64,000 nt of DNA from Gemmatimonadetes bacterium T265. Its GTDB lineage: Bacteria > Gemmatimonadota > Gemmatimonadetes > Gemmatimonadales > Gemmatimonadaceae. Every line of letters begins with the position of its first letter. Within the stretch, counting starts at the first letter, position 1. A program made the translations under genes and the position numbers. The stretch covers positions 868,001 through 932,000 of the forward strand of contig BPUI01000002.1 in assembly GCA_019973575.1 (NCBI GenBank), read 5' to 3'. Positions 250-64,000 of the stretch are shown here, in pieces. Below the pieces are notes generated by a model. It saw only the letters and a program-made list of their open reading frames with translations. It did no database searches and was not told the DNA's origin.

Positions 250-3200
250 TCAGTGGAAGTCGTGCGACCGGTACGCGAACCCCGCGTCCGGCGCGCCGTC
301 GTTAGGCGATCCGCCGTTCGCGGCCACCACCGCCTCCAGCGGCTCGACCGCGCGCGCGACGACGTTGACGAGCGCGCCCTCGCACTCCGCCCGGCCGTAG
401 ACCACGACGAACACGGCCCGGTGGACCGCCTCCCGGCACCGCTCCACGAGGCGCCGGTTGACGATCACGTTGAGCGTCCCGTGCTCGTCCTCGAGCAGCA
501 GGAACACCGTCCCCTTCGCGGTCGACGGCTTCTGGCGCACGATCACGAGCCCGGCGGTCACGACCTGCGTCCCGCCCCGGCAGCGCGCGACCCCGGCGCT
601 GTGGAGCGCGCCGACGCGGTCGCACCACGGGCGGTGGCGCGCCATGGGGTGGCCGGCCACCGACAGGCCTAACGCGTGGTAATCGGCCGAGACGCCGGCG
701 TGCGCGTCGGGCGCGGACGGCGCGTAGCCGCCCTCGCCCGCGTCGCGCGCGGGCGCGAGGGGGAGCGCGTCGCCCGCCGCGCGGAGCGCCTCCCACGCCG
801 CGCGTCGCCGGTCCGGCTCCCACGTCGCGAACGCGTGCGCCCGCGCCAGCGCCGTCGCCTCGGCCCGCGTGAGGCCCGCCCGCCGCACCACGTCCGCCAC
901 CGAGCCGAACGATCCCGCCGCGCGCGCCGCGGTCAGCCGCGCGAGCGCGCCGTCGCCGAGCCCGCGCACGAGCTTCCACCCGACCCGGAGCGCGGGCGCG
1001 TCGGGCGCGCCGTCGCGCTCCTCGATCGTGCACTCCGCCGCCCCGGCCACGAGGCACGGCAGCCGCACTTCCAGCCCGTGCCGCCGCGCGTCGTGCACGA
1101 GCGTCGACACCGAGTAGAAGCCCATCGGTTGCGCGTTCAGCAGCCCCGCGTAGAACGCCGCCGGCTCGTGCCGCTTGAGCCATGCCGTCGCATACGCGAT
1201 CAGCGCGAAGCTCCACGCGTGGCTCTCGGGGAAGCCGTAGTTTGCGAACGAACGTAGGTCCTCGGTCAGCTTCGCGGCGACTTCCTCGGGCACGTCACCC
1301 TCGACCATGCGGATGCGCAGCGTCTCGAGCGCGGCCATGAGGCGCGGGAGCTTGCGCTGGTTGCCCATCGTGCGCCGCAGCTCGTCGGCCTCCTCGGGTT
1401 TGTACTTGGCGAGTTCGACGGAGAGCGCCATCGCCTGTTCCTGAAAGATGGGCAGCCCCTGCGTGCGGCCGAGGATCGGCTTGAGCCGGGCTTCGAGTCC
1501 GGCGGGGTAGTCGACCGACGCTCGCCCACGCCGCCGCTCCACGTACGGGCGCACGAACTTGGCGACGATCGGCCCGGGGCGGATGAGCGCGACTTGGACG
1601 ACGAGGTCGTACATCTTCTCCGGCCGCGTGTGCACGAGCGACGAGATCTGCGCCCGGCTCTCGATCTGGAACGTGCCGAACGTGTCCCCCGCCGAGATCA
1701 TCGCGAAGGTCTCGGGGTCGTCCTGCGGCAGGCGGTACAGGTGCGGGCGCACGCCGCTCCGCCGCTCGACGACGTCGAACGCGCGGCGCACCATGCTGAG
1801 CGCGCCCAACCCCAGGAAGTCGAACTTCGGGATGCCTAACGCATCGAGGTCGTCCTTGTCGTACTGCAGGATCGTGCGCCCCATCGTCGTCGGCTCGACG
1901 GGGCACGTGTCGGCGAGCGGCTCGGCCGACAGCACGAAGCCCCCGGGGTGCGTCGAGCGCATGCGCGGCACGCCCTCGAACGCCGCAACGGCCCGGAGCA
2001 GCGCGTCGCCCCGCGGCGTCGCCGGGTCGAAGCCGGCCGCGCTCAGCCCGTACTCCGCGGCGAGCCCGTCGCGGAGCGCCGCCGCCCCCTCCTCGGGATC
2101 GACGTGGTGCAGCCGCTTGGAGAGCGCGAACGCGACCTCGACCGGCACGCCGTACGCGCGGCAGACGTCCTGCACGGCCGTGGGCGCGCTGTACGTCTGT
2201 ACGATGCACGCGATCGCGGCGTGCGCCCGGCCGTATTGCCTGTATACGTAGTCGAGCAGCTCCTCGCGCCGGTCGTGCTCGACGTCGACGTCGATGTCGG
2301 GCGCCTCCGTCAGTCCGTCGGCGCGCGCCGCGGAGAGGAAGCGTTCGAACAGGAGCCCGTGCTCCACCGGGTCGACCGCGGTGATGCCTAACACGTAAGC
2401 GACGGCGGAGTTCGCCGCGCTCCCGCGCCCCTGGCAGAGGATGTTGCGGCGCTCGGCCTCGCGGACCGCGTCCCACATGACGAGGAAGAAGCCGGCAAAG
2501 CCCAGTCGTCCGATCACACCCAACTCGTGCTCGATCTGCGCGCGCTGTCTCGCGGACAACGAATCACCCCAGCGTACGCGCGCCCCCGCCTCCACGCGCG
2601 CGCGCAGGAGCGCGTCGACGTCGGCGTAGCTGGTGTGCCCGTCGGACAGCGGGACATCGGGCAGCGCAGGCCGCGCCCACGACAGCTCAAATCCATCATT
2701 CCCGCCGCACGCCTCCGCGATTTCGGCGGTCGCCTCGACGCCCGCCTCGCGCCCGGTCCAGCGCCGGGCGACCGCCTCGGGGCTCGGCAGCCCCCACAGC
2801 TCGTTGGGCAGCAGGAGCCCGCGTGCGGCCGCGTCGTCGAGCGTCGTGCCGTGGCGGAGCGCGACGAGCACGTCGAACGCGCGCCGCCCCGCCTCGCCCA
2901 CGTACCGCGAATCGTTGGTCACGGCCCACCGCACCCCTGCCCGCTCGGCCAGCGCGGCGAGCGCGCCGGCGAGCGCCTCCTCGCGCCGCCCCGCGTGGTG
3001 CAGTTGCACCTCGACGGCGAGGTGCGTCTCCCCGCCCGCGCCGGCGAAGGCCTCACGCCACTCCGCAAGTAGCCGTTCGGCCTCGCCCCGCTGCCCGCGC
3101 CGGAGTAGGGCGCCCAGATGACCGCGGGTCGGCCCCGTGAGCAGCGTGAGCCCCGCCGCCCGCTCCGCCACATCCCGCCAGCGCACCTGGGGGTGCCCGC

Positions 3201-3549
3201 GGGGTGGTGCCTTCGCCGCCCGCCCCGCGTCGTCGCGCGACCACTCGGCCAGCCGCCCCGACCGCGCTCGCGTGACGAGCGCGGCGAGATGCCGGTACCC
3301 CTCGGCCGTGCGCGCGAGCAGCGCCATCGGCCGCCCGTCGACGAGCAACTCCACGCCGACCACCGGGCGTAGCTTGAGCCGCCGGCAGGCGAGCGTGAAG
3401 CGGACCACACCACCCAGGTCGCTCGCGTCGGTGAGGCCGATGCTCGTGTACCCCAGCTCGGCCGCGCGCGTGACGAGTTGCTCGGGCGCGGCCGAGCTCG
3501 TGCCGAAGGAGAAGGCGCTGTGCGCGCGCAACTCGACGAAGCGCTCCAC
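250..3549 (-). CDS. dnaE2: Error-prone DNA polymerase DnaE2 (ImuC)
   Basis: Alpha-subunit-type C-family polymerase used for translesion synthesis with ImuA and ImuB. The N-terminus has a PHP domain (VELRAHSAFSFGTSS, then LGYTSIGLTD). The polymerase core contains GRGSAANSAVAYVLG and the acidic PDIDVDVEHDRREE block. Helix-hairpin-helix-like sequence and a C-terminal OB fold (GLVIVRQKPSTAKGTVFLLLEDE) follow. The length of about 1100 residues is normal for DnaE2. An upstream TTG at 3555 is possible, but the GTG at 3549 places VELRAHS close to the start as in relatives, so it is preferred. It is the last gene of imuA-imuB-dnaE2 and lies 18 bp after imuB. Family knowledge: the cassette is damage-inducible and mutagenic. 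Confidence 0.95.
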   Translation of the reverse strand: MERFVELRAHSAFSFGTSSAAPEQLVTRAAELGYTSIGLTDASDLGGVVRFTLACRRLKLRPVVGVELLVDGRPMALLARTAEGYRHLAALVTRARSGRLAEWSRDDAGRAAKAPPRGHPQVRWRDVAERAAGLTLLTGPTRGHLGALLRRGQRGEAERLLAEWREAFAGAGGETHLAVEVQLHHAGRREEALAGALAALAERAGVRWAVTNDSRYVGEAGRRAFDVLVALRHGTTLDDAAARGLLLPNELWGLPSPEAVARRWTGREAGVEATAEIAEACGGNDGFELSWARPALPDVPLSDGHTSYADVDALLRARVEAGARVRWGDSLSARQRAQIEHELGVIGRLGFAGFFLVMWDAVREAERRNILCQGRGSAANSAVAYVLGITAVDPVEHGLLFERFLSAARADGLTEAPDIDVDVEHDRREELLDYVYRQYGRAHAAIACIVQTYSAPTAVQDVCRAYGVPVEVAFALSKRLHHVDPEEGAAALRDGLAAEYGLSAAGFDPATPRGDALLRAVAAFEGVPRMRSTHPGGFVLSAEPLADTCPVEPTTMGRTILQYDKDDLDALGIPKFDFLGLGALSMVRRAFDVVERRSGVRPHLYRLPQDDPETFAMISAGDTFGTFQIESRAQISSLVHTRPEKMYDLVVQVALIRPGPIVAKFVRPYVERRRGRASVDYPAGLEARLKPILGRTQGLPIFQEQAMALSVELAKYKPEEADELRRTMGNQRKLPRLMAALETLRIRMVEGDVPEEVAAKLTEDLRSFANYGFPESHAWSFALIAYATAWLKRHEPAAFYAGLLNAQPMGFYSVSTLVHDARRHGLEVRLPCLVAGAAECTIEERDGAPDAPALRVGWKLVRGLGDGALARLTAARAAGSFGSVADVVRRAGLTRAEATALARAHAFATWEPDRRRAAWEALRAAGDALPLAPARDAGEGGYAPSAPDAHAGVSADYHALGLSVAGHPMARHRPWCDRVGALHSAGVARCRGGTQVVTAGLVIVRQKPSTAKGTVFLLLEDEHGTLNVIVNRRLVERCREAVHRAVFVVVYGRAECEGALVNVVARAVEPLEAVVAANGGSPNDGAPDAGFAYRSHDFH

Positions 3550-3567
3550 GGGCAAGGTGTTAGGCGC

Positions 3568-5238
3568 TCAATCCCACCAGCCGTGCAGGAACCACGCGTC
3601 CGCCGCGCCGCCTTCCGCGGCGGAGAGGTCGCGGTAGAGCAGCACGAGGTCGCCGCGCCCGGTCAGGCATTGCCAGTACTCGCGCGACGCCGGCACGCCG
3701 TGTTCGGCCCCCGCCGTCACGCGGTCGGGCCCGGCCGCGGTGAGCACCTCGACGAGCGGGATCCCGTGCGGCGCCCGCGCCCCTTCGGCCAGCCGCTCGC
3801 GGTAGCGTACCGGGACCGGGTGCCCGCGCTCCGGGCGCGTGGTCACGGCGAGCGGGCGAGGGCGGGGGAGCACGCGCAGGTTCATCGACTCTTGCGCCGC
3901 CTCGGGCGCGTCCGGCCCGGGCGCGGGCGCGCGGACGATGCCTAACGTCGTGCGCTCCGCCGCCATGGCCCCGGTCGACGTCGCCCGCCCGCCGCCCGCG
4001 CCGCCCACGTGCAGCGTGAGACGGGGCGCCGCGGCCGGCGATCCATCGCCCGGTGGCCCCTCGCGCACGGCGAGCGCGGGGCGCCGTGCCTGCGCCTCCA
4101 TCGCCCGCGTCGCCGCTTCGACCGTCGTCGGCTCCCACGTCAGACGCCGTTCGGGGAGCGGGTGCGCGCCGGTCACGGGCCGCACGGGCCGCCCCGCGCC
4201 GTCCTCGATCAGCCGCGCCACCGCCGCCGCGGCCGCGGTCGCGGTCTGCCCGCCGCGGTCGAACAGGTCCGCCTGCGGCGCCGCCAGCGCGCGCGCCGTC
4301 TCGACCCGCAGCGCGAGCCCGCTCACCGCGTCCGATAGCTCCACGCGTTCCAGCTCGGCGCGCAGCAGCCGCCGCCACGTCGCGGGGTCGGCCGTGTCGC
4401 GCGCCGCCCGCACCCGCCGCTCGACCGCGCCCCCGCCGGCGAGCCGCAGGGCGAGCGTCATCGCGCCCGCCCCTTCGCCGCGCGCGCGCAACGCCCCGCA
4501 CACGCGCGCGACGAGCCGCCCCGCGACGAACAGCAGCCGCTCGGGTTCGCGCAGGTCGAACTCGTTCCACTCGAGCGACGCCGACGGCAGGGCGTGCCCG
4601 CCGTACCGGAAGACGCGCCGCGCGTCGTCGGCCCGCGCGAGCCGCCAGAGCGCGACGCCCGCGGCCCCGAGCCGCACCTCGACCGACTCGCGCGCGATGC
4701 GGGCGAGCGCGCCGCACGTGACCACGCCCACGTCCGCGAGCGTCGCCATCGCGCGCGCGACGGTCGTCGGAGACGCGCGGTCCGACTCCGTCCCTCCTGC
4801 GTCGTCCGCCGTGACCGACGGCAGCAGCACGGCGAGCGGGTGTGGGGCGAGGAACGCACGTTCGGCGTTCGGCGCCACGCCGGTGAGCGGCGCGGACGCG
4901 CCCGCGCCCGCGGGGCCCGCGCGGTGCGCGCCCCAGCGCGCCGCCACCGCCGCGACGACTGCGACGCGCGCGACCCCGACCCGCGGCCGCGCGACGCCCC
5001 GCTCGCGCGCGTGGCGGAGTACCTCGCGCGCCACCCGCCGCGCGGACAGCCCGCGCCCGTCGGCCCACACGTAGGTCCCGCCTTCCGGGTCCCCCTCGGC
5101 CGGCGCGAGCACCGCGTGCGGCGTCACCGCGAGCAGCCGCGCGAGCAGCGGGGCGAACGCGCCACCGTTAGGCACCCCCGTCCCGGGCGCACCCGCGGCG
5201 GTCGGCGGGTCGGGGGTCCAGAGCGTCACGAACGTCAT
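3568..5238 (-). CDS. imuB: ImuB-like Y-family polymerase homologue
   Basis: 556 residues. It starts MTFVTLWTPDPPTA, which resembles the ALWLPDWP opening of ImuB proteins. The middle follows a Y-family layout (YVWADGRGLSARR, then helix-rich ARELVRHAR-type sequence), and the C-terminal part has the little-finger-like LLFVAGRLVARVCGALRARG and the ImuB tail RPLAVTTRPERGHPVPVRY. ImuB proteins normally lack the catalytic acidic triad and act as the hub linking DnaE2, ImuA and the beta clamp. The start lies 71 bp inside imuA, an unusually long overlap that implies coupling. The call relies strongly on gene order, because the sequence is divergent and Ala/Arg-rich. Confidence 0.85.
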   Translation of the reverse strand: MTFVTLWTPDPPTAAGAPGTGVPNGGAFAPLLARLLAVTPHAVLAPAEGDPEGGTYVWADGRGLSARRVAREVLRHARERGVARPRVGVARVAVVAAVAARWGAHRAGPAGAGASAPLTGVAPNAERAFLAPHPLAVLLPSVTADDAGGTESDRASPTTVARAMATLADVGVVTCGALARIARESVEVRLGAAGVALWRLARADDARRVFRYGGHALPSASLEWNEFDLREPERLLFVAGRLVARVCGALRARGEGAGAMTLALRLAGGGAVERRVRAARDTADPATWRRLLRAELERVELSDAVSGLALRVETARALAAPQADLFDRGGQTATAAAAAVARLIEDGAGRPVRPVTGAHPLPERRLTWEPTTVEAATRAMEAQARRPALAVREGPPGDGSPAAAPRLTLHVGGAGGGRATSTGAMAAERTTLGIVRAPAPGPDAPEAAQESMNLRVLPRPRPLAVTTRPERGHPVPVRYRERLAEGARAPHGIPLVEVLTAAGPDRVTAGAEHGVPASREYWQCLTGRGDLVLLYRDLSAAEGGAADAWFLHGWWD

Positions 5239-6025
5239 ACGCGGCCACCGCGAGCGTGACCTCGGCCCGCTCGTTCCAGCCGAGCGCGCGCGCCCGCACC
5301 TCGGCGCGCACCTGCGTCGGGACGGCGGCGCCGAACGGCCCGCGCTGCCAGCGCACCCCGTGCAGGATGAGCCGCGACGTGACGCGGAGCGCCGCCATGC
5401 TCCCGCGCTCCGTCAGCACGACGAGCGCCGCGCCGCCGTCGCGCGTGGCGCGCGTGAGGCGCACCGTCTCGGTGCCCGCCGGCTCGCTCCCCGCCGCCAG
5501 CTCGAGCACGACGAGCGCGAAGGCCCCCGACCGCAGCACGAGCTCCGCGCAGCGCAGCGCGTTCATCCGGTCGCTCGGCTGCACGAGCAGTGGCAGCGCG
5601 TCGTCGCCCTCCGCCCGTCCGGTCGCCTCCGGCTCCGCGTCTGCGACCGGCCGTCCCCAGCCGTAGGTCAGCGTCTCGGTCCCGTCGATCCACGCGGCCC
5701 GCTCGCCGCCCGCGATCGCCGCCCGGCACGCGGAGCGCAGCACGGTCGCCGCGCCGGCCGCGGGCGCCCACGCCGTGAGCTTGCCGCGCGGCAGCCCGCC
5801 CCCCGGCAGCGCGCGGTCCAACCCCGGCACGTTGGTCGGCACCGGACGCGCCAGCCGCCCCGCGTCGCGCTCGACCAACGGGCGCGCGTCGGGAAACTGC
5901 TCGGCGAGCAGCCGGCGGACGTCCTCGATCGCGCGAAGCGGGGCGGCGGGCACGGTGGCGGCGGGCGGGCGCGGGTGACGGCATCCGGGGTCGAGCGTTC
6001 GGTTAGGCGTTGCCGCGGGCGGCAA
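5168..6025 (-). CDS. imuA: ImuA, RecA-like protein of the translesion cassette
   Basis: Up to 285 residues. The conserved part begins at LRAIEDVRRLLAEQFPDA and continues with VPGLDRALPGGGLPRGKLTAW, a RecA/SulA-like opening with a degenerate P-loop region (AAGAATVLRSACR). AFALVVLELAAG follows in the Walker B position. ImuA proteins bind RecA and ImuB. The open frame begins with TTG at 6025, but the first 24 residues look non-conserved, and a GTG at 5953 (MPAAPLRAIEDV) is an equally good or better start. The gene leads the imuA-imuB-dnaE2 operon and overlaps imuB by 71 bp. SOS control is expected from the family, but I found no convincing LexA box. Confidence 0.85.
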   Translation of the reverse strand: MPPAATPNRTLDPGCRHPRPPAATVPAAPLRAIEDVRRLLAEQFPDARPLVERDAGRLARPVPTNVPGLDRALPGGGLPRGKLTAWAPAAGAATVLRSACRAAIAGGERAAWIDGTETLTYGWGRPVADAEPEATGRAEGDDALPLLVQPSDRMNALRCAELVLRSGAFALVVLELAAGSEPAGTETVRLTRATRDGGAALVVLTERGSMAALRVTSRLILHGVRWQRGPFGAAVPTQVRAEVRARALGWNERAEVTLAVAAYDVRDALDPRPADRRGCARDGGA

Positions 6026-6026
6026 T

Positions 6027-6053
6027 GGTATACCGAACGGATCCCGAAAGCAA
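6027..6053 (-). promoter_or_regulatory. Possible imuA promoter
   Basis: On the minus strand TTGCTT (6053-6048) and TATACC (6032-6027) are separated by 15 bp, in one of the few AT-richer patches here. The spacing is shorter than the usual 16-18. If real, transcription starts near 6020, inside the TTG-initiated reading frame, which favours the GTG at 5953 as the imuA start. Confidence 0.3.
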
Positions 6054-14256: not shown

Positions 14257-15591
14257 TCAGCCGCGCGCCGCCGCGACCTCCGCGAACGCGACGTCGAGCG
14301 CCGCGCGCGTCGCGCCGAACGTCGCCTCGTCGTGCGCGACGGAGAGGAAGTTGGCCTCGTACGCGGACGGGGCGAGGTAGACGCCCTGGCCTAACATCGC
14401 GTGGAACAGGCGAGCGAAGGCGGCCGCGTCGGAGGTGCGCGCCGCGGCGTAGTCGGCGACCGGGCGGTCGTTCAGGAACAAGCCCCACATGCCGCCGGCC
14501 GCGGCTGCCTGGACCGGGACGTCGTGGCGCGCGGCCGCGGCGCGGACGGCGTCGGCCAGCCGGACGCCGGCGGCGGCCATGGACTCGTACGCGCCCGGCC
14601 GCGCCATGACGCGGAGCGAGGCGAGGCCGGCCGCCATCCCTAACGGGTTGCCGGAGAGGGTGCCGGCCTGGTACACCGGGCCCGACGGCGCGACGGTGCG
14701 CATCACGTCGGCGCGGCCGCCGTAGGCCGCGACCGGGAGCCCGCCGCCGATCACCTTGCCGAGGCAGGTGAGGTCGGGCGTGACGTCGTAGGCGAGCTGC
14801 GCGCCGCCCCACGCGACGCGAAAGCCCGTCATCACCTCGTCGAAGATGAGCAGCGCGTCGTGCGCGGTCGCGAGGCGCCGCAGGCCGTCGAGGAAGCCAG
14901 GCGCGGGCGGGACGAGCCCCATGTTGCCCGCGACCGGCTCGACGATGATCGCGGCGACCTGGCCGCGGTTGGCCTCTAGCGCGGCCTCGGTCGCCGCGAG
15001 GTCGTTGAACGGGACGACGACCGTGTCGGCCGTCGCGCCCGGGGTGACGCCGGGGCTGTCGGGGAGGCCTAACGTGGCCACGCCGGACCCCGCCTTGACG
15101 AGCAGGGCGTCGGCGTGTCCGTGGTAGCAGCCGTCGTACTTGACGAACTTGGGGCGGCCGGTGAAGGCGCGCGCCACGCGGATCGCGCTCATCGTCGCCT
15201 CGGAGCCGCTCGACACGAAGCGGACCATCTCGACGCTCGGCAGCGCGTCGACGAGGACCGACGCCAGCTCGGCCTCCGCCTCGATCGGCGCGCCGAAGCT
15301 CGTCCCCGCCGCGACCTGCCGCTGGATGGCCTCGACGACCTCGGGGTGCGCGTGGCCCGCGGCGAGCGCGCCCCACGACATGACGTAGTCGACGTAGGTG
15401 GTGCCGTCGACGTCGGTGACGTACGGGCCGCGGCCGGCGCGCATCACGCGCGGCGTGCCGCCGACGGCGCGGAAGGCGCGCACGGGGCTGCTCACGCCGC
15501 CGGGGATGACCTCGCGCGCGCGGGCGAGGACCGCGGCGGAGTGCTCGACCGGGGTCGTATCGACGGGCGCGGGGGAGACGAGCGTGCTCAC
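14257..15591 (-). CDS. hemL: Glutamate-1-semialdehyde 2,1-aminomutase
   Basis: 444 residues, family-typical length. This PLP enzyme converts glutamate-1-semialdehyde to 5-aminolevulinate, the second dedicated step of the C5 heme pathway. Motifs: VIPGGVSSPVRAFRAVGG near the N-terminus, SSGSEATMSAIRVARAFTGR, YHGHAD, IIVEPVAGNMG, LLIFDEVMTGFRV, and the PLP lysine in CLGKVIGGGLP. GNPLGMAAGL and the C-terminal GVYLAPSAYEANFLS are also as in HemL. The GTG start overlaps the hemB stop by 4 bp (GTGA). It is the last gene of the heme operon and is distinct from the diverged paralogue at 54250. Confidence 0.97.
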   Translation of the reverse strand: MSTLVSPAPVDTTPVEHSAAVLARAREVIPGGVSSPVRAFRAVGGTPRVMRAGRGPYVTDVDGTTYVDYVMSWGALAAGHAHPEVVEAIQRQVAAGTSFGAPIEAEAELASVLVDALPSVEMVRFVSSGSEATMSAIRVARAFTGRPKFVKYDGCYHGHADALLVKAGSGVATLGLPDSPGVTPGATADTVVVPFNDLAATEAALEANRGQVAAIIVEPVAGNMGLVPPAPGFLDGLRRLATAHDALLIFDEVMTGFRVAWGGAQLAYDVTPDLTCLGKVIGGGLPVAAYGGRADVMRTVAPSGPVYQAGTLSGNPLGMAAGLASLRVMARPGAYESMAAAGVRLADAVRAAAARHDVPVQAAAAGGMWGLFLNDRPVADYAAARTSDAAAFARLFHAMLGQGVYLAPSAYEANFLSVAHDEATFGATRAALDVAFAEVAAARG

Positions 15592-16658
15592 GGCTGGCCC
15601 TCGCCCTCGCGGATCCAGCGGGCGGCGTCCCGCGCGTAGTACGTGATGACGAGGTCGGCGCCCGCGCGGCGGATCGCGACGAGCGACTCGAGCGCGGCCT
15701 TCCGCCGGTCGAGCCAGCCGCGCTCGGCGGCCGCTTCGAGCATCGCGTACTCCCCGCTTACCTGATACGCGGCGAGCGGGAGCGCGCTCTTCCGGCGGAT
15801 GCGGTAGATCACGTCGAGGTAGGCGCCGGCGGGCTTGACCATCAGCATGTCGGCGCCTTCGACGACGTCGCGCATCGACTCGCGCACGGCCTCGCGCGCG
15901 TTGCCGGCCGGAAGCTGGTGGCCCGCGCGGTCCCCGAACGACGGCGCCGACGCGACCGCCTCGCGGAACGGGCCGTAGAACGCCGAGGCGAACTTGGTCG
16001 AGTACGAGAGGATGGCGACGTCGTGATGGCCCTCGGCGTCGAGGGCCGCGCGGATCGCCGCGACCTGGCCGTCCATCATCGCGCTCGGCGCGACGACGTC
16101 GACGCCCGCGTCGGCGTAGGCCACGGCGGCCTGCCCGAGCAGCGGCAGGGTCGCGTGCAGGTCGACCGCGCCGGACCCGTCGAGGGCGCCGCAGTGGCCG
16201 TGTTCGGTGTATTCGCAGAGGCAGACGTCCGCGATGACGAGCAGCTGCGGACGCCTCGCCTTGATCGCGCGGATCGCGCGCGGGACCGGTCCGTTAGGCG
16301 CGAACGCGCCGGTGCCGCACGCGTCCTTCGCGTCGGGGATGCCGAAGAGGAGGACGGACTGCAGCCCGTCGGTGACGACCGCGTCGATCTCCTGCTCGAG
16401 CCGGTCGACGGTCCACTGCGCGTGGCCGGGCAGCGAGTTGATTGGCCGGACGATGTCGACGCCGTCGCGTACGAAGAGCGGGAGCACGAGGTGCTCGGGG
16501 CGGAGCGAAGTTTCGGCGAGCATGCGGCGCGCCGCCGGCAGCTGACGGAGACGGCCGACGCGGCTTGCGGCGGCAGCAGCCCGCGGTGCGACGGGCGAGG
16601 GCGCGGCGTCGCGGGGCGGCGCCGCGGGCGCAACGAAGCGGTCGATGATCGTAGACAT
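15588..16658 (-). CDS. hemB: Delta-aminolevulinic acid dehydratase (porphobilinogen synthase)
   Basis: 356 residues. Condenses two 5-aminolevulinate molecules to porphobilinogen in the cytoplasm. The zinc site is visible as DVCLCEYTEHGHCG (Cys 146, 148, 156), which indicates a Zn-dependent rather than Mg-only type. The Schiff-base lysines are in SYSTKFASAFYGPFRE and MVKPAG. A run of about 30 Ala/Pro-rich residues precedes the conserved LRQLPAARRML, so the first 30 residues are probably disordered. It starts 16 bp after the hemD stop and overlaps hemL by 4 bp. Confidence 0.97.
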   Translation of the reverse strand: MSTIIDRFVAPAAPPRDAAPSPVAPRAAAAASRVGRLRQLPAARRMLAETSLRPEHLVLPLFVRDGVDIVRPINSLPGHAQWTVDRLEQEIDAVVTDGLQSVLLFGIPDAKDACGTGAFAPNGPVPRAIRAIKARRPQLLVIADVCLCEYTEHGHCGALDGSGAVDLHATLPLLGQAAVAYADAGVDVVAPSAMMDGQVAAIRAALDAEGHHDVAILSYSTKFASAFYGPFREAVASAPSFGDRAGHQLPAGNAREAVRESMRDVVEGADMLMVKPAGAYLDVIYRIRRKSALPLAAYQVSGEYAMLEAAAERGWLDRRKAALESLVAIRRAGADLVITYYARDAARWIREGEGQP

Positions 16659-34909: not shown

Positions 34910-35047
34910 GGGGCGCTCCGCGCGCTCAACGACGCACGGCCCGTGGGGTGTCGCGAGGGTGGGTGACGCGTGGGCCGCGACGTCGACGCGCGCTCTGGCC
35001 CCGCGCCGCCCCCGCGCCCGGGGTGGCGGCGTTAGGCTGCCGGTGAG

Positions 35048-44132: not shown

Positions 44133-44201
44133 CGCCGCGTCGGAGACGCGGCACGACGCGCCGCGTGGTCCCACATACCGCCCGTCGTTAGGCGCCGCGG
44201 C

Positions 44202-48883: not shown

Positions 48884-50509
48884 ATGATGCGTGGACGCGC
48901 GGAGAAGGGAAGGGCGGCCGCGCTCGTCCGCGACCTGCCCCGACGCAGCGCGGCCCTCGCCGCTGCGTGCATCGGCGCCTGTGCCCAACCCGCGCGGCCG
49001 GCCGACGTCGCCGTCGTCGCGTCGGGCGCGGACCTCGAATCGCCCGACCCGATCGTGACCGTGCACCCGCTCTCGCGGCAGGTACAGCGTCACGTCCTCC
49101 TCGTCACCCTCGCGCGCTACGACGCGGCGTTCCGGCCCACGCCGTACTACGCGCGCCGCTGGCGTTGGGCGCCCGACCGGCGCGCGGTCACGCTGTCGCT
49201 CGAGCCGACGCTCCGCTGGCACGACGGCGTCCTGACGACGGCCGCGGACGCGGTCTTTACGTTCGACCTCGCCCGCGACTCCGCCGTCGGATCGCCGCGC
49301 CGCGCCGAGTTGGGCGCGCTCGCCGACGCGCGCGCGGTCGACGATACGACGCTCGTGCTGCGCTTCACCGCGCCGCAGCCCGATTTCCCGCGATTCGTTT
49401 GCGAGCTGCCGCTCGTTCCGCGCCACCTGTTAGGCATCGAGTCGCGGCGCGCGTTGCGGCGGGCGGGGTTCGAGACGGCCCCGGTCGGCAACGGCCCGTT
49501 CCGCTTCGTCGAGCGCCGGGCGGGCGCACGCTGGACCTTCGCGCGCAACGACGCGTTCCCGGCCGCGATGGGCGGCGCGCCGCACCTCGCACGGCTCGTC
49601 GTCGCGGTCGTCGACGAGCCGACGACGAAGTTCGCGGGGCTGATCACCGGCGAACTCGACGTCGCGGGCATCGCGCCGACGAGCGCCGCGCTGCTCGCGC
49701 GCGACCCGGTCGCGCGCGTCGTCTCGTACCCCGTCGCGTTCTCGACCGGCCTCGTGTTCAACACCGGGCGGCTGCCGTTCGACGACGCGCGCGTCCGGCA
49801 GGCCGTGAGTGCCGCGATCGACCGGCGGCGCATCGTCGACGTCGCGCTCGCCGGGTACGGCACACCGTCCGCGAGCGCGGTCCCGCCGGACGTTCCGTAC
49901 GCATTGCCGGTGCCCGACCCGCGCGACCCGCGTCGCGCCGACTCGCTCCTCGACGCGGCGGGCTGGACGCGCGGACCCGACGGCGTGCGCCGCCGCGCGG
50001 GGCACCCGCTTGCGGTCGAACTGCTCACGGTCGGGTCGGGCGACAACGCCGCCGAGCAACTCGTGCAGGCGGACCTCGCCGCCCGCGGCGTCGCCGTCGC
50101 GATCCGCCCGCGCGAACTCGGCGCGTTTCTCACCGCGGCCCGCGCCCGGCGCAAGACGTTCGACCTGCTCCTCGCGGGCGTGCCCGGCGACGTCGGCCTA
50201 ACGTATCTCGCGGCGATGTTCGCGTCGGCCGCGGCGGGCGGCACGCTCGACTACTCGGGGTACCACCGTCCGACGCTCGACGCGGCGTTCGCCCGCGCGT
50301 CGGCGGCGCCCGATTCGGCAGAGCGTGCCGCGGCGTGGACGGCCGTGCAGCGGATGCTCGCCGATTCGGTACCGGTCGCCTGGTTGTACCACTCGCGCGG
50401 CGTGCAGGGCGTCGCGCGGCGCCTCCGTGGGGTGACGATGGACCTCCGCGGCGAGCTCGCGACCGTGCACGACTGGACCGGCGACCCGACGCCACCCGCG
50501 TCCCGGTGA
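48884..50509 (+). CDS. ABC transporter substrate-binding protein, family 5
   Basis: 541 residues. An Arg-rich N-terminus and short hydrophobic stretch (SAALAAACIGACAQ) with a possible lipobox cysteine suggest an anchored periplasmic protein. LESPDPIVTVHPLSRQVQRHVLLVTLARYD, LEPTLRWHDGVLTTAADAVFTFDLARD, VGNGPFRFV, and FDDARVRQAVSAAIDRRRIVDVALAGYG are all DppA/OppA-type motifs, and the C-terminal VPVAWLYHSRGVQGVARR fits. Despite the family name, relatives also bind sugars or glycopeptides. The tandem ATGs at 48884 and 48887 are both in frame. The stop overlaps the next gene by 4 bp. Confidence 0.9.
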   Translation: MMRGRAEKGRAAALVRDLPRRSAALAAACIGACAQPARPADVAVVASGADLESPDPIVTVHPLSRQVQRHVLLVTLARYDAAFRPTPYYARRWRWAPDRRAVTLSLEPTLRWHDGVLTTAADAVFTFDLARDSAVGSPRRAELGALADARAVDDTTLVLRFTAPQPDFPRFVCELPLVPRHLLGIESRRALRRAGFETAPVGNGPFRFVERRAGARWTFARNDAFPAAMGGAPHLARLVVAVVDEPTTKFAGLITGELDVAGIAPTSAALLARDPVARVVSYPVAFSTGLVFNTGRLPFDDARVRQAVSAAIDRRRIVDVALAGYGTPSASAVPPDVPYALPVPDPRDPRRADSLLDAAGWTRGPDGVRRRAGHPLAVELLTVGSGDNAAEQLVQADLAARGVAVAIRPRELGAFLTAARARRKTFDLLLAGVPGDVGLTYLAAMFASAAAGGTLDYSGYHRPTLDAAFARASAAPDSAERAAAWTAVQRMLADSVPVAWLYHSRGVQGVARRLRGVTMDLRGELATVHDWTGDPTPPASR

Positions 50510-53400
50510 GCGTGCTCTACTTGGACGCGCACGGCGTCGCCGAACGTCGCCGCGCCGTGGCCGGCCCGGGCGCGCCGCTCGGCGCGCTCGTCGCGTCGCT
50601 CGCCGCCGACCTCGCGCCCGTCCTCGCGCGCCCGGTCTGGACGCCGCTCGAGAAGGCGTGTCTAACGCGCGTGGGTGGAACCTGCCCGCGCGACGGCGCG
50701 CGCTTGGAGTTCGACCCGTTCGCGCCGCGCGCGCACCGCTGTCCGTCGTGCGCGGCGGTGTACGACCGCGACGAGGACTACCGCTGGTGGATCATGGGCT
50801 ACCAGCTCTGGCTCGCGGAGCGCGCGGTGCACGCGGCCGCGCTCGCGCTGACCGCCGCGGCCGACGCGCGTGCGGTGGACGCCTGGCAAGCGTACGCGGC
50901 GCGCGTCCTCGACGCGCAGGCGGACGCGTACCTCGCCTACCCGAACGTCGACAACGTCCTCGGCCCGACGCGCCCCTTCTTCAGCACGTACCTCGAGTCG
51001 CTCTGGCTCGTGCACGTGTGTACCGCGTTGGACTTCCTCTGCGCGTCTGCGCCGGGACGGTACGACGCGCTCGCCGACCGCGTCCGCGCGCGCGTCGTCG
51101 AACCGAGTCGCGCCTTGATCGCCAGCTTTCCCGAGGGCACGTCGAACCGGCAGGTGTGGCACGCGGTCGCGCGGCTCGCCGCGTCTCGCGTGCTCGGCGA
51201 CGCGCGCGCCGCGGAAGCGGCCGTGCACGGACCGTTCGGCATCGCCGAGTTGCTCGACCGGGCGCTACTTGCCGACGGAAGTTGGTACGAGGGTGAGAAC
51301 TATCACCAGTTCGCGCACCGTGGCTTCTGGTACGCCCTGCGGTTCGCCGAGCGTACCGGGATCGGAGTCGCGCGCGCGCTCGTCGCGCGCTTCCGCGCCG
51401 GGTACGCGGTCCCGTTCCGCGTCGCGCTCCCCGACGACACGCTCCCCACGCGCCGCGACGCGCAGTACGCCGTCTCGCTCCGGCAGTGGCGGTGGGCGGA
51501 GTGGTGCGAGCTGGGCCTAACGGACGGCGGCCTCGCGCGCCTCGGCCCCGCGCTCGCCCGGCTTTACGCCCCGAGCGATCCGCGACTGCCCCACCGGACG
51601 GGCCGCTGGCGCGCGACGGGCGAGAGCGAACGCAACGAGCCCGCGAGCGCGCTCTCGCGCGCGGACCTCGGCTGGAAGTCGCTGCTCTTCGCGCGGCCCG
51701 AGTTACCGCCCGTCGCGCCGGAGCGCGCGCGTCGATGCGAACTGCTCCCCGAGCAGGGGTACGCCGTCTTGCGCCGCGGCAACGGCCGCGTGTACGCCGG
51801 GCTCGACTACGGCGCCAGGGGCGGCGGGCACGGGCACCCGGACCGCCTGAACCTGATCCTGCAGGACGGGCCCGTGCGCTGGCTCGACGACCCCGGTACG
51901 GGCACGTACGTCGAGCGCGCGTTGCACTGGTACCGCAGCACCCTCGCGCACGCGGCGCCGCTCGTCGACGGGCGATCGCAGCCGCCGGACGCTCTCGGAT
52001 CGCTGGTTGGCTTCGACCCCGGGCCCGATCCGACGCCCGCGCGCGCGACCGACGAGCCGGCGTTCGCGGGCGTCGCGGCGCGGGCGGAGATCGCGCCGGC
52101 GACGGCGGCACGCGCGGTCGTCGTGAGCGACGCGTACGTCGTCGACCTGCTCACCTGGCGCGCGTTCCGGCCGTGCGTCGTCGACCTGCCGTTGCACGTC
52201 GACGCCCCGCGCGGAGCGCCACCGGCGGCGTGGGCCCGGTTCGACCCGTTAGGCGCCGGCGGACTCGAAGACGGGTTCGACTTCGTGCGCGGCGCCGAGT
52301 CGACGCCGGCGGGAGAGGAGCCGCTGCGCCTCACGGTCACGCTCCCCGGCGCCGCGCGCGACGCCAACGCCGCGCTCTGGCTCAGCGCGCCCGGCGCGAG
52401 CCTCTGGCGCGCCGTCGCTCCCGGGCCGCCCGGAACCGGCGAACGCCGCTTCCACGCGGTTCGCATGGAGGGCACGTCCGGCGCGGTCGTGTCGGTGTGG
52501 GACCTGCGCGGCGCGGTGACGTCGGTGCACTCGGCGGCCGACGGCGCGATCACCGTCGAACTCTCGGGCGGCGTCGTAGACCAGCACGTCGTCCCCGCGG
52601 CGTTGCGCCTCGACCGCGCCCGCGCGCACGACACGACCAGCGCCGGCGTCGCCGATTGGCGCGTCGAGCGACGAGACGCGGCAGGTCGGACCGTTGGGCA
52701 GCGCCTCGCGCTCGTAGCGCCGCCGGCCGCGGCGATAGCTCGACCGCCGGAGGCGCCACACGAGCCCGCGCCGGCGACGCCGTACGTCCTCCCGGCGGAC
52801 GGGCGCCCCCTGACGTTCGCGTTAGGCGCCTCGCACTACGTCCGCTCCGAAGCGACGTGGGACGACGCGGGCGCGCCCACGGCGGTCGTCCGCATCTCGG
52901 CTTCGGGCAACGGGGCGCTGGTCGTCGACGTTGACGTGCGGCTCGGTCGCCCCCCGGCCTTTGCGCCGCCGGGCGCGGTCAACCCGCTCGACAACGAGCG
53001 CGCGGACGTGAACAGCGACGGCCTGCAGCTCCTCCTCGCGTGCGGCGCGGATGCGTCGTCGCCCGCCACGTGGCTGCTCGTCCCCGAACGCGACGCTCCG
53101 GTAGTCCGGACGACGCGCACGACCGCCGGCGTCGCGGCCGCGACGATCGATGCGGCCTGGCGCGAACGCGCGGACGGCTGGGCCGTCACGTGCCACATCC
53201 GATTCGCCCCCGACGTGCGCCCCGGCGACGTCGTCGCGCTCGACCTCGCCGTAAACGAGCGGCCGCCGGGGCGCGAGCGCCGCCGTGGCCAGCTGCAGCT
53301 GAGCGAGCCGGCCTCGCCGTTCGTGTATCTTCGGGGCGACCGGATGGACGCGACGCGCGCCCCCCGGTTCCTGCTCCCGCCGGCCGCGCCGGCCCCCTGA
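50506..53400 (+). CDS. Heparinase II/III-type polysaccharide lyase-like protein
   Basis: 964 residues, GTG start overlapping the binding-protein stop (GTGA). A Cys-rich N-terminal patch (GGTCPRDG, then HRCPSCAAVYDRDEDYRWW) resembles the zinc-ribbon-like start of these proteins. An alpha-toroid follows (residues about 90-350, with GSWYEGENYHQFAHRGFWY). The beta-sandwich core has GARGGGHGHPDRLNLIL (catalytic His region) and ALHWYRSTLAHAAPLVDGRSQ. The C-terminal 200 residues (YVRSEATWDDAG, DNERADVNSDGLQLLLACG) look like a CBM9/DOMON-type carbohydrate-binding fold. No signal peptide is evident. It probably cleaves uronic-acid-containing polymers by elimination. Confidence 0.82.
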   Translation: MSVLYLDAHGVAERRRAVAGPGAPLGALVASLAADLAPVLARPVWTPLEKACLTRVGGTCPRDGARLEFDPFAPRAHRCPSCAAVYDRDEDYRWWIMGYQLWLAERAVHAAALALTAAADARAVDAWQAYAARVLDAQADAYLAYPNVDNVLGPTRPFFSTYLESLWLVHVCTALDFLCASAPGRYDALADRVRARVVEPSRALIASFPEGTSNRQVWHAVARLAASRVLGDARAAEAAVHGPFGIAELLDRALLADGSWYEGENYHQFAHRGFWYALRFAERTGIGVARALVARFRAGYAVPFRVALPDDTLPTRRDAQYAVSLRQWRWAEWCELGLTDGGLARLGPALARLYAPSDPRLPHRTGRWRATGESERNEPASALSRADLGWKSLLFARPELPPVAPERARRCELLPEQGYAVLRRGNGRVYAGLDYGARGGGHGHPDRLNLILQDGPVRWLDDPGTGTYVERALHWYRSTLAHAAPLVDGRSQPPDALGSLVGFDPGPDPTPARATDEPAFAGVAARAEIAPATAARAVVVSDAYVVDLLTWRAFRPCVVDLPLHVDAPRGAPPAAWARFDPLGAGGLEDGFDFVRGAESTPAGEEPLRLTVTLPGAARDANAALWLSAPGASLWRAVAPGPPGTGERRFHAVRMEGTSGAVVSVWDLRGAVTSVHSAADGAITVELSGGVVDQHVVPAALRLDRARAHDTTSAGVADWRVERRDAAGRTVGQRLALVAPPAAAIARPPEAPHEPAPATPYVLPADGRPLTFALGASHYVRSEATWDDAGAPTAVVRISASGNGALVVDVDVRLGRPPAFAPPGAVNPLDNERADVNSDGLQLLLACGADASSPATWLLVPERDAPVVRTTRTTAGVAAATIDAAWRERADGWAVTCHIRFAPDVRPGDVVALDLAVNERPPGRERRRGQLQLSEPASPFVYLRGDRMDATRAPRFLLPPAAPAP

Positions 53401-53408: not shown

Positions 53409-54242
53409 ATGCCGTCGCCGCTCGACCACGTCCGCGTCGTCCTCTACGAACCGCAGAAGCCGATCAACATCGCCGGCACCGTCCGGGCGATGAAGAACAT
53501 GGGCGTCGGCGAGCTCCGGCTCGTCCGTCCCTGCGCGTACGACGCGAACTACATCGAGGTCATCGCGCACCACACGCGCGACATCGCCGACCGCATCCGC
53601 CACTTCGACACCCTCGACGCCGCGCTCGCCGACTGCGTGCGCGTCGCCGCGTTCACCGGCCGGCGCCGGGCGGCGAAGTGGCCGATCACCACCCCCCGCG
53701 CGGCCGCCGCCGACCTCGCCGCGCACGCGGAGCACGGCCCGGTCGCGGTCCTCTTCGGCCGCGAGGACGACGGGCTCCCCGCCGACGCGATCGACCGCGC
53801 CGGGCTCGCGGTCACGATCCCGACCACCGCGCACGCCTCGCTCAACGTCGCGCAGGCCGTCCTCGTCGCGCTCTACGAGCTGCACCTCGCGGCCGAGGAC
53901 GCGACCGTGCCGTTAGGCCGCTCGCGCAAGCACGCGCCGCCGCCGACCGCCGCGGAGTTCGAGGAGTTCTTCGCCGACACGGAGCGCGCGCTCTCCGCGC
54001 TCGACTTCTTCCGCACGCGCAACCCGGAGCACGTCATGCGCGGGATCCGCTCGCTCGTCTTCCGCGCCGAGCCGGACGCGCGCGAACTCGGGTTGAACCG
54101 CGCGGTCGCGTTCGAGATCCTGCGCACGATCGAGCGCGAGCGCGCCCGCGCGTTCGCGGCCGGGCTCGCGGCCGGCCGCGGCGAGTCCGCCGCCGAGCAC
54201 GCCGCCGCGCGCCTCGACCCGTCCGAAGCCGCGCCCCGCTGA
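53409..54242 (+). CDS. trmJ: TrmJ-like SPOUT RNA 2'-O-methyltransferase
   Basis: 277 residues. Methylates tRNA position 32 in characterised relatives. Opens [25 protein letters not shown], the TrmJ/LasT signature. The knot region contains [20 protein letters not shown] and [24 protein letters not shown] (S-adenosylmethionine-binding trefoil knot, NxxQAV). A C-terminal domain of about 110 residues, longer than the minimal SPOUT fold, contains [26 protein letters not shown] as in TrmJ. It lies 8 bp after the heparinase gene and 7 bp before an aminotransferase gene, a setting without obvious functional link. Confidence 0.9.
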
Positions 54243-58124: not shown

Positions 58125-61406
<3,282 letters not shown>

Positions 61407-61424
61407 CGAGGAGGCAGAGCGCAC

Positions 61425-62912
61425 ATGGCGACGATCGCCCGCCCGGTCCCGGGCGGCTTCCCCGGGGACGTGCCCCGACGGCCGAACATCGCGAGCGCCG
61501 ACGTCCAGCTCCCGGGCGTCCGCGACTACGAGCAGGTCGACAACGAGATCATCGGGACGATGACGCCGACGGCGGGCTGGTTCGCCGCCCTCGGCACCGC
61601 CGTCGTCTGCATGCTCATCGGCGCGTCGGCCTGGGTCTACCAGATCTTCTGGGGACTCGGCCAGGCCGGCTACGCCCCGCCCCTCATGTGGGGCGTCTAC
61701 ATCATCACGTTCGTCTTCTGGGTCGGCATCGGCCACGCGGGGACGCTGATCTCCGCCATCCTCTACCTCTTCCGCGCCGGCTTCCGCACGACGATTTACC
61801 GCGTTTCGGAAGCGATGACGGTGTTCGCCGTCATGACCGCGGGGCTCTTCCCGATCATCCACATCGGGCGGCCGTGGAAGTTCTACTGGCTGCTGCCGTA
61901 CCCGAACTGGCGGCTGATCTGGCCCAACTTCAAGTCGCCGCTCGTCTGGGACGTCTTCGCGATCTCGACCTACCTGACGATCTCGACCACGTTCCTCTAC
62001 GTCGGGCTCATCCCCGACATCGCGGTGCTGCGCGACCGGGAGACCAACCCGGTGCGCAAGCGGATCTTCTCCGTCCTCTCGTTAGGCTGGCGCAACTCCG
62101 ACCGCGAGTGGCGCCACTTCGCCCGCGCCTACCTGTTCCTCGCGGCGTTCTCGACCCCGCTCGTGCTCTCGGTGCACTCGGTGGTGTCGTTCGACTTCGC
62201 GATGGCGCTCACGCCCGGCTGGCACGCGACCATCTTCCCGCCCTACTTCGTCGCCGGCGCCATCTTCTCGGGCTTCGCGATGGTCTGGACGATCGTCATC
62301 CCGATCCGCCGCTGGTTCGGGCTCAAGCACTACGTGACCCTGAACCAGCTCGACGCGACGGCCAAGGTCGTCCTCTTTACCTCGCTCGTCGTCGGCTCGG
62401 CGTACCTCATCGAGTTCTTCATCGCGTGGTACTCGGGCAACCCGGCCGAGATGGAGTACTTCTACAACCGCGTCTTCGGGCAGTGGTGGTGGAGCGCGTG
62501 GATCCTACTGATCTGCAACATGGTGCTCCCCATGTCGCTCTTCTCGCAGAAGCTCCGCCGCAACACGACGTGGCTCTTCATCCTGAGCCTGTTCATCAAC
62601 CTCGGGATGTGGTACGAGCGGTTCGTCATCGTCGTGCCGTCGCTCACGCACGAGTTCGAGCCGTGGCAGTGGACGCACTACATGCCGAGCTGGGTCGACA
62701 TGAGCTTCCTCATCGGCTCGTTCGGGTGGTTCTTCATGTGGTTCCTGCTCTTCACCAAGCAGCTCCCGGTGTTCGCGCTGGCCGAAATCAAGGAGATCGT
62801 GCCGCCGCGCATGGCGAGCGGGCACGTCGCGCCCGACCAGGCGATCGAGCACGGCGGAATGGCGAACCCGCTCACCGCGGGCGGCCCGCACACCGCCGGG
62901 GGGACCGCCTGA
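61425..62912 (+). CDS. actC: Alternative complex III quinone-interacting membrane subunit, ActC (NrfD-like)
   Basis: 495 residues with about ten membrane helices. Features of the NrfD/PsrC fold are WGVYIITFVFWVGIGHAGTLISAILYLFR, FPIIHIGRPWKFYWLLPYPNWRLIWPNF, SVVSFDFAMALTPGWHATIFPPYFVAGAIFSG and AWYSGNPAEMEYFYNRVFGQWWW. This subunit contains the quinol site of the complex. A clear GAGGAGG ribosome binding site lies 11 bases before the ATG. It begins 18 bp after actB and overlaps actD by one base. Confidence 0.96.
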   Translation: MATIARPVPGGFPGDVPRRPNIASADVQLPGVRDYEQVDNEIIGTMTPTAGWFAALGTAVVCMLIGASAWVYQIFWGLGQAGYAPPLMWGVYIITFVFWVGIGHAGTLISAILYLFRAGFRTTIYRVSEAMTVFAVMTAGLFPIIHIGRPWKFYWLLPYPNWRLIWPNFKSPLVWDVFAISTYLTISTTFLYVGLIPDIAVLRDRETNPVRKRIFSVLSLGWRNSDREWRHFARAYLFLAAFSTPLVLSVHSVVSFDFAMALTPGWHATIFPPYFVAGAIFSGFAMVWTIVIPIRRWFGLKHYVTLNQLDATAKVVLFTSLVVGSAYLIEFFIAWYSGNPAEMEYFYNRVFGQWWWSAWILLICNMVLPMSLFSQKLRRNTTWLFILSLFINLGMWYERFVIVVPSLTHEFEPWQWTHYMPSWVDMSFLIGSFGWFFMWFLLFTKQLPVFALAEIKEIVPPRMASGHVAPDQAIEHGGMANPLTAGGPHTAGGTA

Positions 62913-63406: not shown

Positions 63407-63409
63407 CCC

Positions 63410-64000
63410 ATGGCATCCGCAACCCGCACCCGACTCGTCCGCGCCACGGCCGGCGCGGCACTCCTGCCCGCGTTAGGCGCCTGCGACTGGTTCACCGACT
63501 TCAAGAACCAGCCGAAGATCGAGCCGTGGGAGCCCGTGTCGCAGCTCGACAGCGACACGACCCACCCGCCGCGCCCCAACCCGCAGAACTCCGTCCCGGT
63601 CTCCGGGACCTTCGTCGCCGCGTACCAGATCTCGTACAACCCGATCCCGAACGTGATCGATTCGATCGCGAACGCGACGACGAACCCCACGCCGGTGAGC
63701 CCCGCGTCGCTGCTCAACGGGCGCAAGTACTACCAGGTCAACTGCGTCGTCTGCCACGGCGATCAGGGGAAGGGGAACGGCCCGGCGACGCTCTACGGCG
63801 TGCCCGGGATCAACATCACGGCCGACCTGACGCGCGGCCGCAAGGACGGCTACATCTACGGAATGATGCGGAACGGCCGCGGCGCGATGCCGACGTACGA
63901 CCGCATCGAGGACATGGACCGCTGGGACGTCGTGAACTACGTCCGCGCGCTGCAGGGCGTCGTGCCTAACACCGCGGGCGTGGGCCCGGTCGGCTACCCG
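63410..64000 (+). CDS. actE: Alternative complex III monoheme cytochrome c lipoprotein, ActE (cut by window end)
   Basis: 197 residues are visible. A lipoprotein signal ends in the lipobox LGAC (Cys25), followed by DWFTDFKNQPKIEPWEP and the conserved SVPVSGTF region. The single heme site is CVVCH (112-116) in KYYQVNCVVCHGDQGKGNGPA, and GAMPTYDRI offers the axial Met. WDVVNYVRALQG is the usual class I cytochrome c C-terminal helix. The gene continues beyond base 64000, where actF and possibly oxidase genes are expected from family organisation. Confidence 0.94.
   Translation, partial: MASATRTRLVRATAGAALLPALGACDWFTDFKNQPKIEPWEPVSQLDSDTTHPPRPNPQNSVPVSGTFVAAYQISYNPIPNVIDSIANATTNPTPVSPASLLNGRKYYQVNCVVCHGDQGKGNGPATLYGVPGINITADLTRGRKDGYIYGMMRNGRGAMPTYDRIEDMDRWDVVNYVRALQGVVPNTAGVGPVGYP

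Follow-up and report, generated by a model that had tools for sequence, protein, structure and literature searches.

The uptake signal sequence (USS) of the Pasteurellaceae has a nine-base core and occurs at about 0.8 copies per kb, and to our knowledge uptake sequences are known from few groups beyond this family and the Neisseriaceae, with their DNA uptake sequence (DUS). It is in these two families that the part of the published account drawn on here places them (PMC1939737). A short word of another kind, the integron core site, is given as GTTRRRY in the passages cited (PMC10127599, PMC3053210), and the heptamer GTTAGGC, with which this report is concerned, fits it. We consider the heptamer in a stretch of 64,000 nucleotides (‘the window’; contig BPUI01000002.1, positions 868,001 to 932,000) of Gemmatimonadetes bacterium T265, in the rest of that genome and in its relatives. 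Judged by analogy with the known systems, the extended form (C/T)GTTAGGC(G/A) may work like a DNA uptake sequence, and this is the reading towards which, on balance, we lean over its rivals.

A first-pass annotation of the window, made from its letters, had noted about 41 copies of GTTAGGC on the two strands and called the word strongly over-represented. There are exactly 41, 25 on the plus strand and 16 on the minus strand, against a mean of 2.28 (largest 6) in 100 dinucleotide shuffles and 1.81 by an order-2 Markov model. The whole T265 genome (G000; 5,629,403 bases, 6 contigs) holds 3,304 copies, 1,612 and 1,692 on its strands or 0.59 per kb, with 253 for the reversed control word, a count far from expectation, and the TTA-containing heptamers with high scores do not rival it, merely overlapping GTTAGGC. 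The sampled stretches hold 360 copies in 544 kb of G000 and 410 in 620 kb of Gemmatirosa kalamazoonensis (G016, whose contig C3 is 99.9% identical to NZ_CP007129.1), about 0.66 per kb in each. The beginning of the Gemmatirosa chromosome (L148) recurs in contig C1 of the assembly (L205), and about 19.5 kb is thus counted twice in most of the figures for that genome; its copy count (391 in 600 kb) and spacing were repeated without L205, which the 7-mer ranks still include. The 21 kb of L205 are 100% identical to L148 in two pieces (5,956 and 13,560 bp), either by assembly redundancy or as a repeat. A near relative, G015, nearly equal in guanine-plus-cytosine (GC) content (0.742 and 0.741), has 0 copies in 380 kb, and the words that differ most between G000 and G015 overlap GTTAGGC; further differences lie in C runs and in a few weaker words.

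The base before the heptamer is C or T in 335 of the 360 G000 copies and 398 of the 410 in Gemmatirosa, and the base after it is G or A in 299 and 330 respectively, giving the extended form. The word is not palindromic, its complement strand reading GCCTAAC. Other words are repeated in the G000 sample (L088-L107 and the window), namely CTCAGGATGACA with 8 copies, CCCCGGGGTGAC with 17 and the unrelated, TTA-free heptamer TAGTAGA, which has only 26 copies in 464 kb and a ratio of 18.9, close to the 20.4 of GTTAGGC. Words related to CTCAGGATGACA also occur in G009 (L118), and all three are perhaps dispersed repeats or reflect a codon-pair preference.

Is it codons or the DNA word that is being kept? 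The first-pass annotation proposed that the heptamer dictates rare codon use and that selection acts on the DNA itself, and both proposals stand up beyond the window. Within called genes 161 of the 211 TTA codons in the G000 sample and 150 of the 160 in Gemmatirosa lie inside the word (here too with the 19.5 kb counted twice), against 4 TTA in 99,066 codons of G015. Called genes and their frames come from a crude GC-frame caller that covers 73-79% of bases and is wrong at 47312-50509, so the frame and density figures are approximate. Read as Leu-Gly, Pro-Asn, Leu-Thr and Val-Arg, copies number 161, 43, 11 and 5 in the G000 sample and 150, 95, 17 and 12 in Gemmatirosa; none of the four open coding frames is left unused. 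The word also supplies 36 of 355 stop codons in G000 (25 TAA, 11 TAG) and 32 of 435 in Gemmatirosa (17 TAA, 15 TAG), or 7-10% of stops across both of these word-rich genomes, and it is denser outside called genes than inside them (0.96 vs 0.55 per kb in G000, 1.03 vs 0.56 in Gemmatirosa). Across the ActB proteins of 10 rich lineages, motif-bearing Leu-Gly and Pro-Asn pairs sit at less conserved columns (25 pairs at 0.536 vs 77 pairs at 0.656; one-sided p 0.023). The 5% of bins lowest in GC carry 0.80 (G000) and 0.33 (Gemmatirosa) copies per 2.5 kb, with GC quintile means of 1.05-2.47 and 0.94-1.88, acquired DNA being judged by GC alone. The use of every open frame, the density outside genes, the stops, the absence from the G015 samples and the over-even spacing described below support the view that selection (or drive) acts on the word as DNA and not on the codons it forms, in what is a clean case of a single DNA word dictating codon choice.

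In the window 23 copies read Leu-Gly (TTA GGC), 7 Pro-Asn (CCT AAC) and 1 Gly-Leu-Thr (CTA), and the other 10 fall beyond called genes or on their borders. The earlier statements that most sense copies encode Leu-Gly with TTA (23 of 41), and that TTA is almost absent elsewhere (called genes have 28 TTA codons, 23 of them inside GTTAGGC), are thus borne out. The copies of GTTAGGC, with strand and context, are as follows.

301..307, plus: Pro-Asn in the minus-strand gene 250-3555
667..673, minus: Leu-Gly (TTA)
1834..1840, minus: Leu-Gly (TTA)
2386..2392, minus: Leu-Gly (TTA)
3559..3565, plus: between called genes 250-3555 and 3568-5238
3940..3946, minus: Leu-Gly (TTA)
5167..5173, plus: Pro-Asn
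6002..6008, plus: outside called genes
14389..14395, minus: Leu-Gly (TTA)
15067..15073, minus: Leu-Gly (TTA)
16293..16299, plus: Pro-Asn
18192..18198, minus: outside called genes
19657..19663, plus: Pro-Asn in the minus-strand URO-D family gene 19552-20673
20122..20128, minus: Leu-Gly (TTA) in the same URO-D family gene
22340..22346, minus: outside called genes
25453..25459, plus: Leu-Gly (TTA)
26123..26129, plus: Leu-Gly (TTA)
29087..29093, minus: Leu-Gly (TTA)
33030..33036, plus: Leu-Gly (TTA)
35031..35037, plus: outside called genes; right end of the attC-like hairpin candidate 34924-35037
36512..36518, minus: Pro-Asn
37884..37890, plus: Leu-Gly (TTA)
39940..39946, plus: Leu-Gly (TTA)
43694..43700, plus: Leu-Gly (TTA)
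44187..44193, plus: close upstream of gene 44202-46979 (glycosyl hydrolase family 38)
45146..45152, plus: Leu-Gly (TTA)
47521..47527, minus: gene assignment unreliable at this place
47824..47830, plus: TAA stop of the minus-strand permease gene 47825-49426
49429..49435, plus: directly outside the 5' end of the minus-strand open reading frame 47825-49426
50196..50202, minus: Leu-Thr (CTA), provided that the called plus-strand frame, unreliable here, holds
51515..51521, minus: outside called genes
52248..52254, plus: outside called genes
52821..52827, plus: outside called genes
53912..53918, plus: Leu-Gly (TTA); right end of the attC-like hairpin candidate 53840-53918
58550..58556, plus: Leu-Gly in actB; GCTCGGC in G015
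59771..59777, plus: Leu-Gly in actB; GCTCGGC in G015
59990..59996, plus: Leu-Gly in actB; also in Gemmatirosa, GACCGGC in G015
61401..61407, minus: TAA stop of the actB frame 58101-61406
62081..62087, plus: Leu-Gly in the NrfD-family gene 61425-62912
63472..63478, plus: Leu-Gly (TTA)
63964..63970, minus: Pro-Asn; also in Gemmatirosa, G015 differing by one base

The three copies earlier placed in gaps, at 3559, 35031 and 44187, all lie outside called genes, and the two stops credited to the word are where they were said to be: the actB frame ends in the copy at 61401, and the gene that had been called dppB-like ends in that at 47824-47830. A Pfam match (BPD_transp_1, E 1.6e-35) marks the latter gene as a binding-protein-dependent transport permease, over which the caller wrongly picked an overlapping plus-strand open reading frame. 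The two hairpin candidates in the list are likely chance pairs, the word being abundant. The longest word-free stretch, 6009-14388, surrounds the gene of a 1,675-aa GGDEF/HD/AAA/TPR protein (8271-13298) and, at the density of copies seen, is not clearly beyond chance.

Copies lie on average 1,398 bp apart in G000 and 1,393 bp in Gemmatirosa; for meningococci the part of the report cited gives a mean distance of about 1,500 bp between composite DUS (PMC2397512). Pairs of neighbours with less than 300 bp between them number 27 where 64.7 are expected (G000) and 29 where 69.9 are (Gemmatirosa), and inverted pairs within 60 bp number 2 among 360 copies and 3 among 391. When spacing was checked, as the first-pass annotation had advised, copies proved more evenly spread than comparable 7-mers in both rich genomes: GTTAGGC is lowest of 265 7-mers of similar abundance for close neighbours and variance in G000, and in Gemmatirosa it is second of 335, behind its own one-base-shifted overlap. 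Such over-even spacing would follow if every fragment needed a copy, whereas neither mutation nor local repair would account for it. Selection might instead keep sites evenly spread for a sequence-specific protein that organises the nucleoid or chromosome, at about one site per 1.4 kb. The spacing, the presence on both strands, the depletion of low-GC DNA and the likeness of the Gemmatirosa chromosome to its plasmid replicons (13, 16 and 15 copies in three stretches of two replicons from its plasmid collection, at densities similar to the chromosome) would all suit such a protein, for which near-absence from related genera, and opposite counts within one labelled genus (5,785 in G021 vs 9 in G241, an 88% complete draft), would be odd. 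We know of no architectural protein with thousands of strict 8-bp sites, and regard the proposal as doubtful.

The parallel once drawn with oriented motifs of the Chi or KOPS (FtsK-orienting polar sequences) type, serving recombination or segregation, fares worst. GTTAGGC is, as such motifs are, short, non-palindromic and over-represented, but its strand totals in G000 are near equal and the 25 stretches of the Gemmatirosa chromosome carry 168 vs 158 copies per strand, with a sign that never switches along it; this want of polarity rules out KOPS-type use in Gemmatirosa and leaves the class as a whole hardly credible.

What gives rise to the copies? Alignment with the syntenic region of G015 succeeded for 16 of 18 window sites, which differ there from the word, gaps included, at 1 (2 sites), 2 (4), 3 (4), 4 (4) or 5 (2) positions. 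With 12 of the 16 free of gaps (4 have them), the copies were mostly not inserted, and insertion of the word as a block is not supported; on these alignments, copies turn over by substitution in place and not by spread of an inserted element. At the distance of G015, point mutation and recombination with diverged DNA would be indistinguishable as the source; in Neisseria the portion of the work cited argues for recombination as the source of DUS copies (PMC2397512). Conservation in sister species, which the first-pass annotation had asked about, is partial: 2 of 14 aligned sites are common to the window and Gemmatirosa, and G015 has none of the word in its 380 kb.

The same alignments bear on HIP1 of cyanobacteria, another of the parallels first offered, in which a word would be kept by a DNA methyltransferase and biased mismatch repair. 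HIP1 too is iterated, patchy and lost in some lineages, methyltransferases being generally present where it is frequent, according to the part of the study cited (PMC4390886), and so far the parallel holds. It fits less well in that GTTAGGC is not a palindrome, and in that at 14 of 16 aligned sites the difference from G015 covers two or more positions (counting gaps), which is more than a single repair step can make; depletion of near-miss words is no stronger than in G015 (0.94 vs 0.69 of expectation), and local repair does not predict even spacing. We consider an origin of this kind unlikely.

The window's ActB is closest, among 79 loci returned, to that of Roseisolibacter sp. H3M3-2 (71% in the best segment), the next matches being records titled Gemmatimonadaceae or Gemmatimonadetes; G000 groups with the Gemmatimonadaceae. 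One locus titled Candidatus Kuenenia stuttgartiensis (L040) encodes an ActB of the Gemmatimonadota type, 58% identical to the window's, and is probably mislabelled or mis-binned. In a phylum survey of G000 and 297 other Gemmatimonadota genomes, at least 700 copies are present in 11 of 102 members of the same family, 4 of 69 of the same order (all of genus g47) and 0 of 126 others (highest 153); the remaining 91 family members have 3 to 169. A further rich genome, G028 (4,273 copies), lies outside the survey. Two genomes were set aside as intermediate (G057 with 277 copies, G126 with 203), G172 and G040 were counted without a check of the extended form, and G143, first counted as rich, is doubtful, since 125 of its 436 copies have the extended form, about the chance level. 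In a midpoint-rooted tree of 73 ActB sequences the rich lineages are scattered among poor ones, and the window groups with Gemmatirosa, adjoining the poor G015 and H3M3-2 (0 copies in 13 kb). That the word is the same throughout suggests either that the trait is old and many lineages have lost it, or that it was gained repeatedly. Among the 10 rich lineages 7 pairs of ActB positions are shared, with 7.1 expected by chance, so loss and repeated gain are not told apart, and no old conserved sites were seen. No other dialect was seen in 380 kb of the poor relative G015, nor in samples of at most 23 kb from other poor relatives, which have limited power. In the poor relatives L086 and L054 CTACAAC exceeds an order-2 model 33-fold and 14-fold respectively, and there it may be codon preference or another word.

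Of the parallels first listed, the DNA uptake sequence fits best, by density, occurrence on both strands, spacing and permissive sites. A receptor on the cell surface, part of the competence machinery and probably a minor pilin of the type IV kind, would bind double-stranded DNA bearing the word best; DNA of the cell's own kind would be taken up preferentially, recombined into the chromosome and kept; uptake bias and recombination would, through molecular drive and/or selection, fill the genome to about one copy per conversion-tract-sized fragment, copies settling at whatever codons or gaps tolerate the word; and lineages losing competence or the receptor would lose their copies. In this scheme we infer the receptor, the uptake bias, the drive and the loss. 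G000 has ComEC, PilT and DprA. ComEC and DprA occur together in 17 of 17 rich and 18 of 25 poor genomes (one-sided p 0.018, a figure that omits G267 and G184, counts the doubtful G143 as rich and, like all the ComEC and DprA statistics, ignores phylogeny), and DprA is missing or falls under its cut-off in 4 of 25 poor genomes and in 0 of 17 rich ones; the direction fits, and the association is weak.

A number of results weigh against an uptake function. With G267 and G184, rich genomes without ComEC that are drafts of at least 900 contigs, counted as lacking the pair, the comparison becomes 17 of 19 vs 18 of 25 (p 0.15). PilT is found in 45 of 45 genomes, rich and poor alike, ComEC passes its cut-off in 18 of 20 rich genomes and 19 of 25 poor ones, and the GspH pilin family is present in 13 of 17 and 17 of 25; being similar in rich and poor, none of the three tracks the word, and no receptor emerged from the one pilin family surveyed, GspH. 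No account of competence in Gemmatimonas was found in the literature searched, and identity with an integron attC box is not something a pure uptake model predicts. Lastly, one-mismatch words stand at 0.935 and 0.942 of expectation in the two rich genomes and 0.688 in G015; those that are raised are GTTGGGC, GTTAAGC, GTTAGAC and GTTAGTC, with only some transitions up. In Haemophilus influenzae and Neisseria gonorrhoeae, as the cited part of that account has it, mismatched uptake words exceed expectation in proportion to their similarity (PMC1939737). Since the mismatched forms of GTTAGGC are not over-represented, unlike those of the two known cases, we do not file it as a member of the uptake sequences and describe it as probably working like one: excess, placement, spacing and symmetry match, and the frequency of mismatched forms does not. 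The literature searched held no naming of GTTAGGC as a genomic signal and no report of an uptake sequence in this phylum. If the uptake reading is true, the Gemmatimonadota are an independent case for testing the evolution of uptake specificity, with natural controls at hand in related genera with and without the word.

The integron connection deserves separate treatment. An integron integrase (IntI) is over cut-off in 28 of 42 and 7 of 21 genomes of this order (overlapping sets), and many attC ends read GCCTAACG...(C/T)GTTAGGC. At loci chosen by integrase, 28 attC-like hairpins give 56 boxes, of which 22 are GTTAGGC, 11 GTTAGGT and 11 GTTAGAC; at loci chosen by the word it is 89 of 98, the choice being circular. 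About 1 in 500 heptamers fits GTTRRRY by our own reckoning, and a match by coincidence is unlikely but possible. G000 itself has integrase genes over cut-off at C3:115000-115947, C1:366680-367612 and C3:192486-193382, one with an internal TGA, and two of the three have attC-like hairpins in their 20-kb stretches. In the same order, cassette arrays at L145, L234, L235 and L237, whose attC sites are about 90-140 bp long and have the bounds GCCTAAC...GTTAGGC, add copies in motif-poor relatives.

Might the dispersed copies then be integron sites of some sort? As a general explanation, dispersed attC sites or cassette debris are rejected: an attC site has an R'' and an R' box at the two ends of a hairpin 57-141 bp long, only 2 pairs among the 360 copies stand in attC-like order, and attC-like hairpins are few (464 kb of G000 holds 5, 600 kb of G016 holds 6, with 3 of those in the duplicated contig, and 380 kb of G015 holds 1). 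Copies might instead be simple GTTRRRY binding sites, kept because the integrase acts on them or is titrated by them. GTTAGGC is overall the commonest attC box of the order's integrons, and of the raised near-misses GTTGGGC, GTTAGAC and GTTAAGC fit GTTRRRY (GTTAGTC does not), but in rich hosts GTTAGAC is as common a box (10 of 30, vs 9 for GTTAGGC), the scarcity of attC-ordered pairs counts here too, and IntI, over cut-off in 9 of 10 rich family members, is so in 17 of 25 poor ones as well (p 0.18), so its presence is not supported as the cause. Among genomes that are rich or fairly rich in the word, G154, G184 and G053 show no IntI that passes the cut-off, and G131 and G054 have partial matches only; yet the extended form persists in G154, G184, G053 and G131 (YGTTAGGCR in 65-71%), the listed copies of G154 being dispersed over both strands. 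Where G154, G184 and G053 keep the word with no IntI above the cut-off, the integrase is not what maintains it now. We know of no way for an integrase to spread a heptamer by base substitution, and hold this explanation to be quite improbable.

A further variant would make the uptake word equal the integron box on purpose: a receptor preferring (C/T)GTTAGGC would feed free cassettes with attC ends to the integron, chromosomal copies being a by-product, and some lineages would keep uptake after loss of the integrase. We think this rather unlikely, and the attC boxes speak against it, the GTTAGGC share in rich hosts (9 of 30) being not higher than in poor ones (13 of 26). Base +7 of the boxes is a purine in 25 of 30 in rich and 10 of 26 in poor hosts, many of them from one array and not independent. 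The identity with the attC box raises a new question all the same: how do cassettes reach integrons?

Set beside the systems described elsewhere, GTTAGGC resembles the DUS of the Neisseriaceae in being non-palindromic, in its spacing (1.4 kb, against about 1.5 kb in meningococci), in occupying permissive sites, in a thinning in low-GC DNA that may correspond to the scarcity of DUS in acquired DNA, and in having its placement limited by a stop codon in one frame, as far as the cited parts of two accounts describe DUS (PMC2397512, PMC3630211). It differs in its core of 7-9 bases rather than 10-12, its unrelated sequence and its phylum, in the rarity of the close inverted pairs that in DUS are often terminators, in showing no dialects and in equalling an attC box. 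With the USS of the Pasteurellaceae it has in common a strict word at comparable density; the word is a different one, and mismatched forms are over-represented for USS, in the part of the account cited (PMC1939737), and not for GTTAGGC. Like HIP1, it is iterated and patchy across relatives, on the cited portion of that study (PMC4390886), but HIP1 is a palindrome containing methyltransferase targets and GTTAGGC is none. With the attC core site GTTRRRY it shares the heptamer itself and the pyrimidine before most boxes, whereas the dispersed copies, with few exceptions, have no second box, no hairpin and no cassette.

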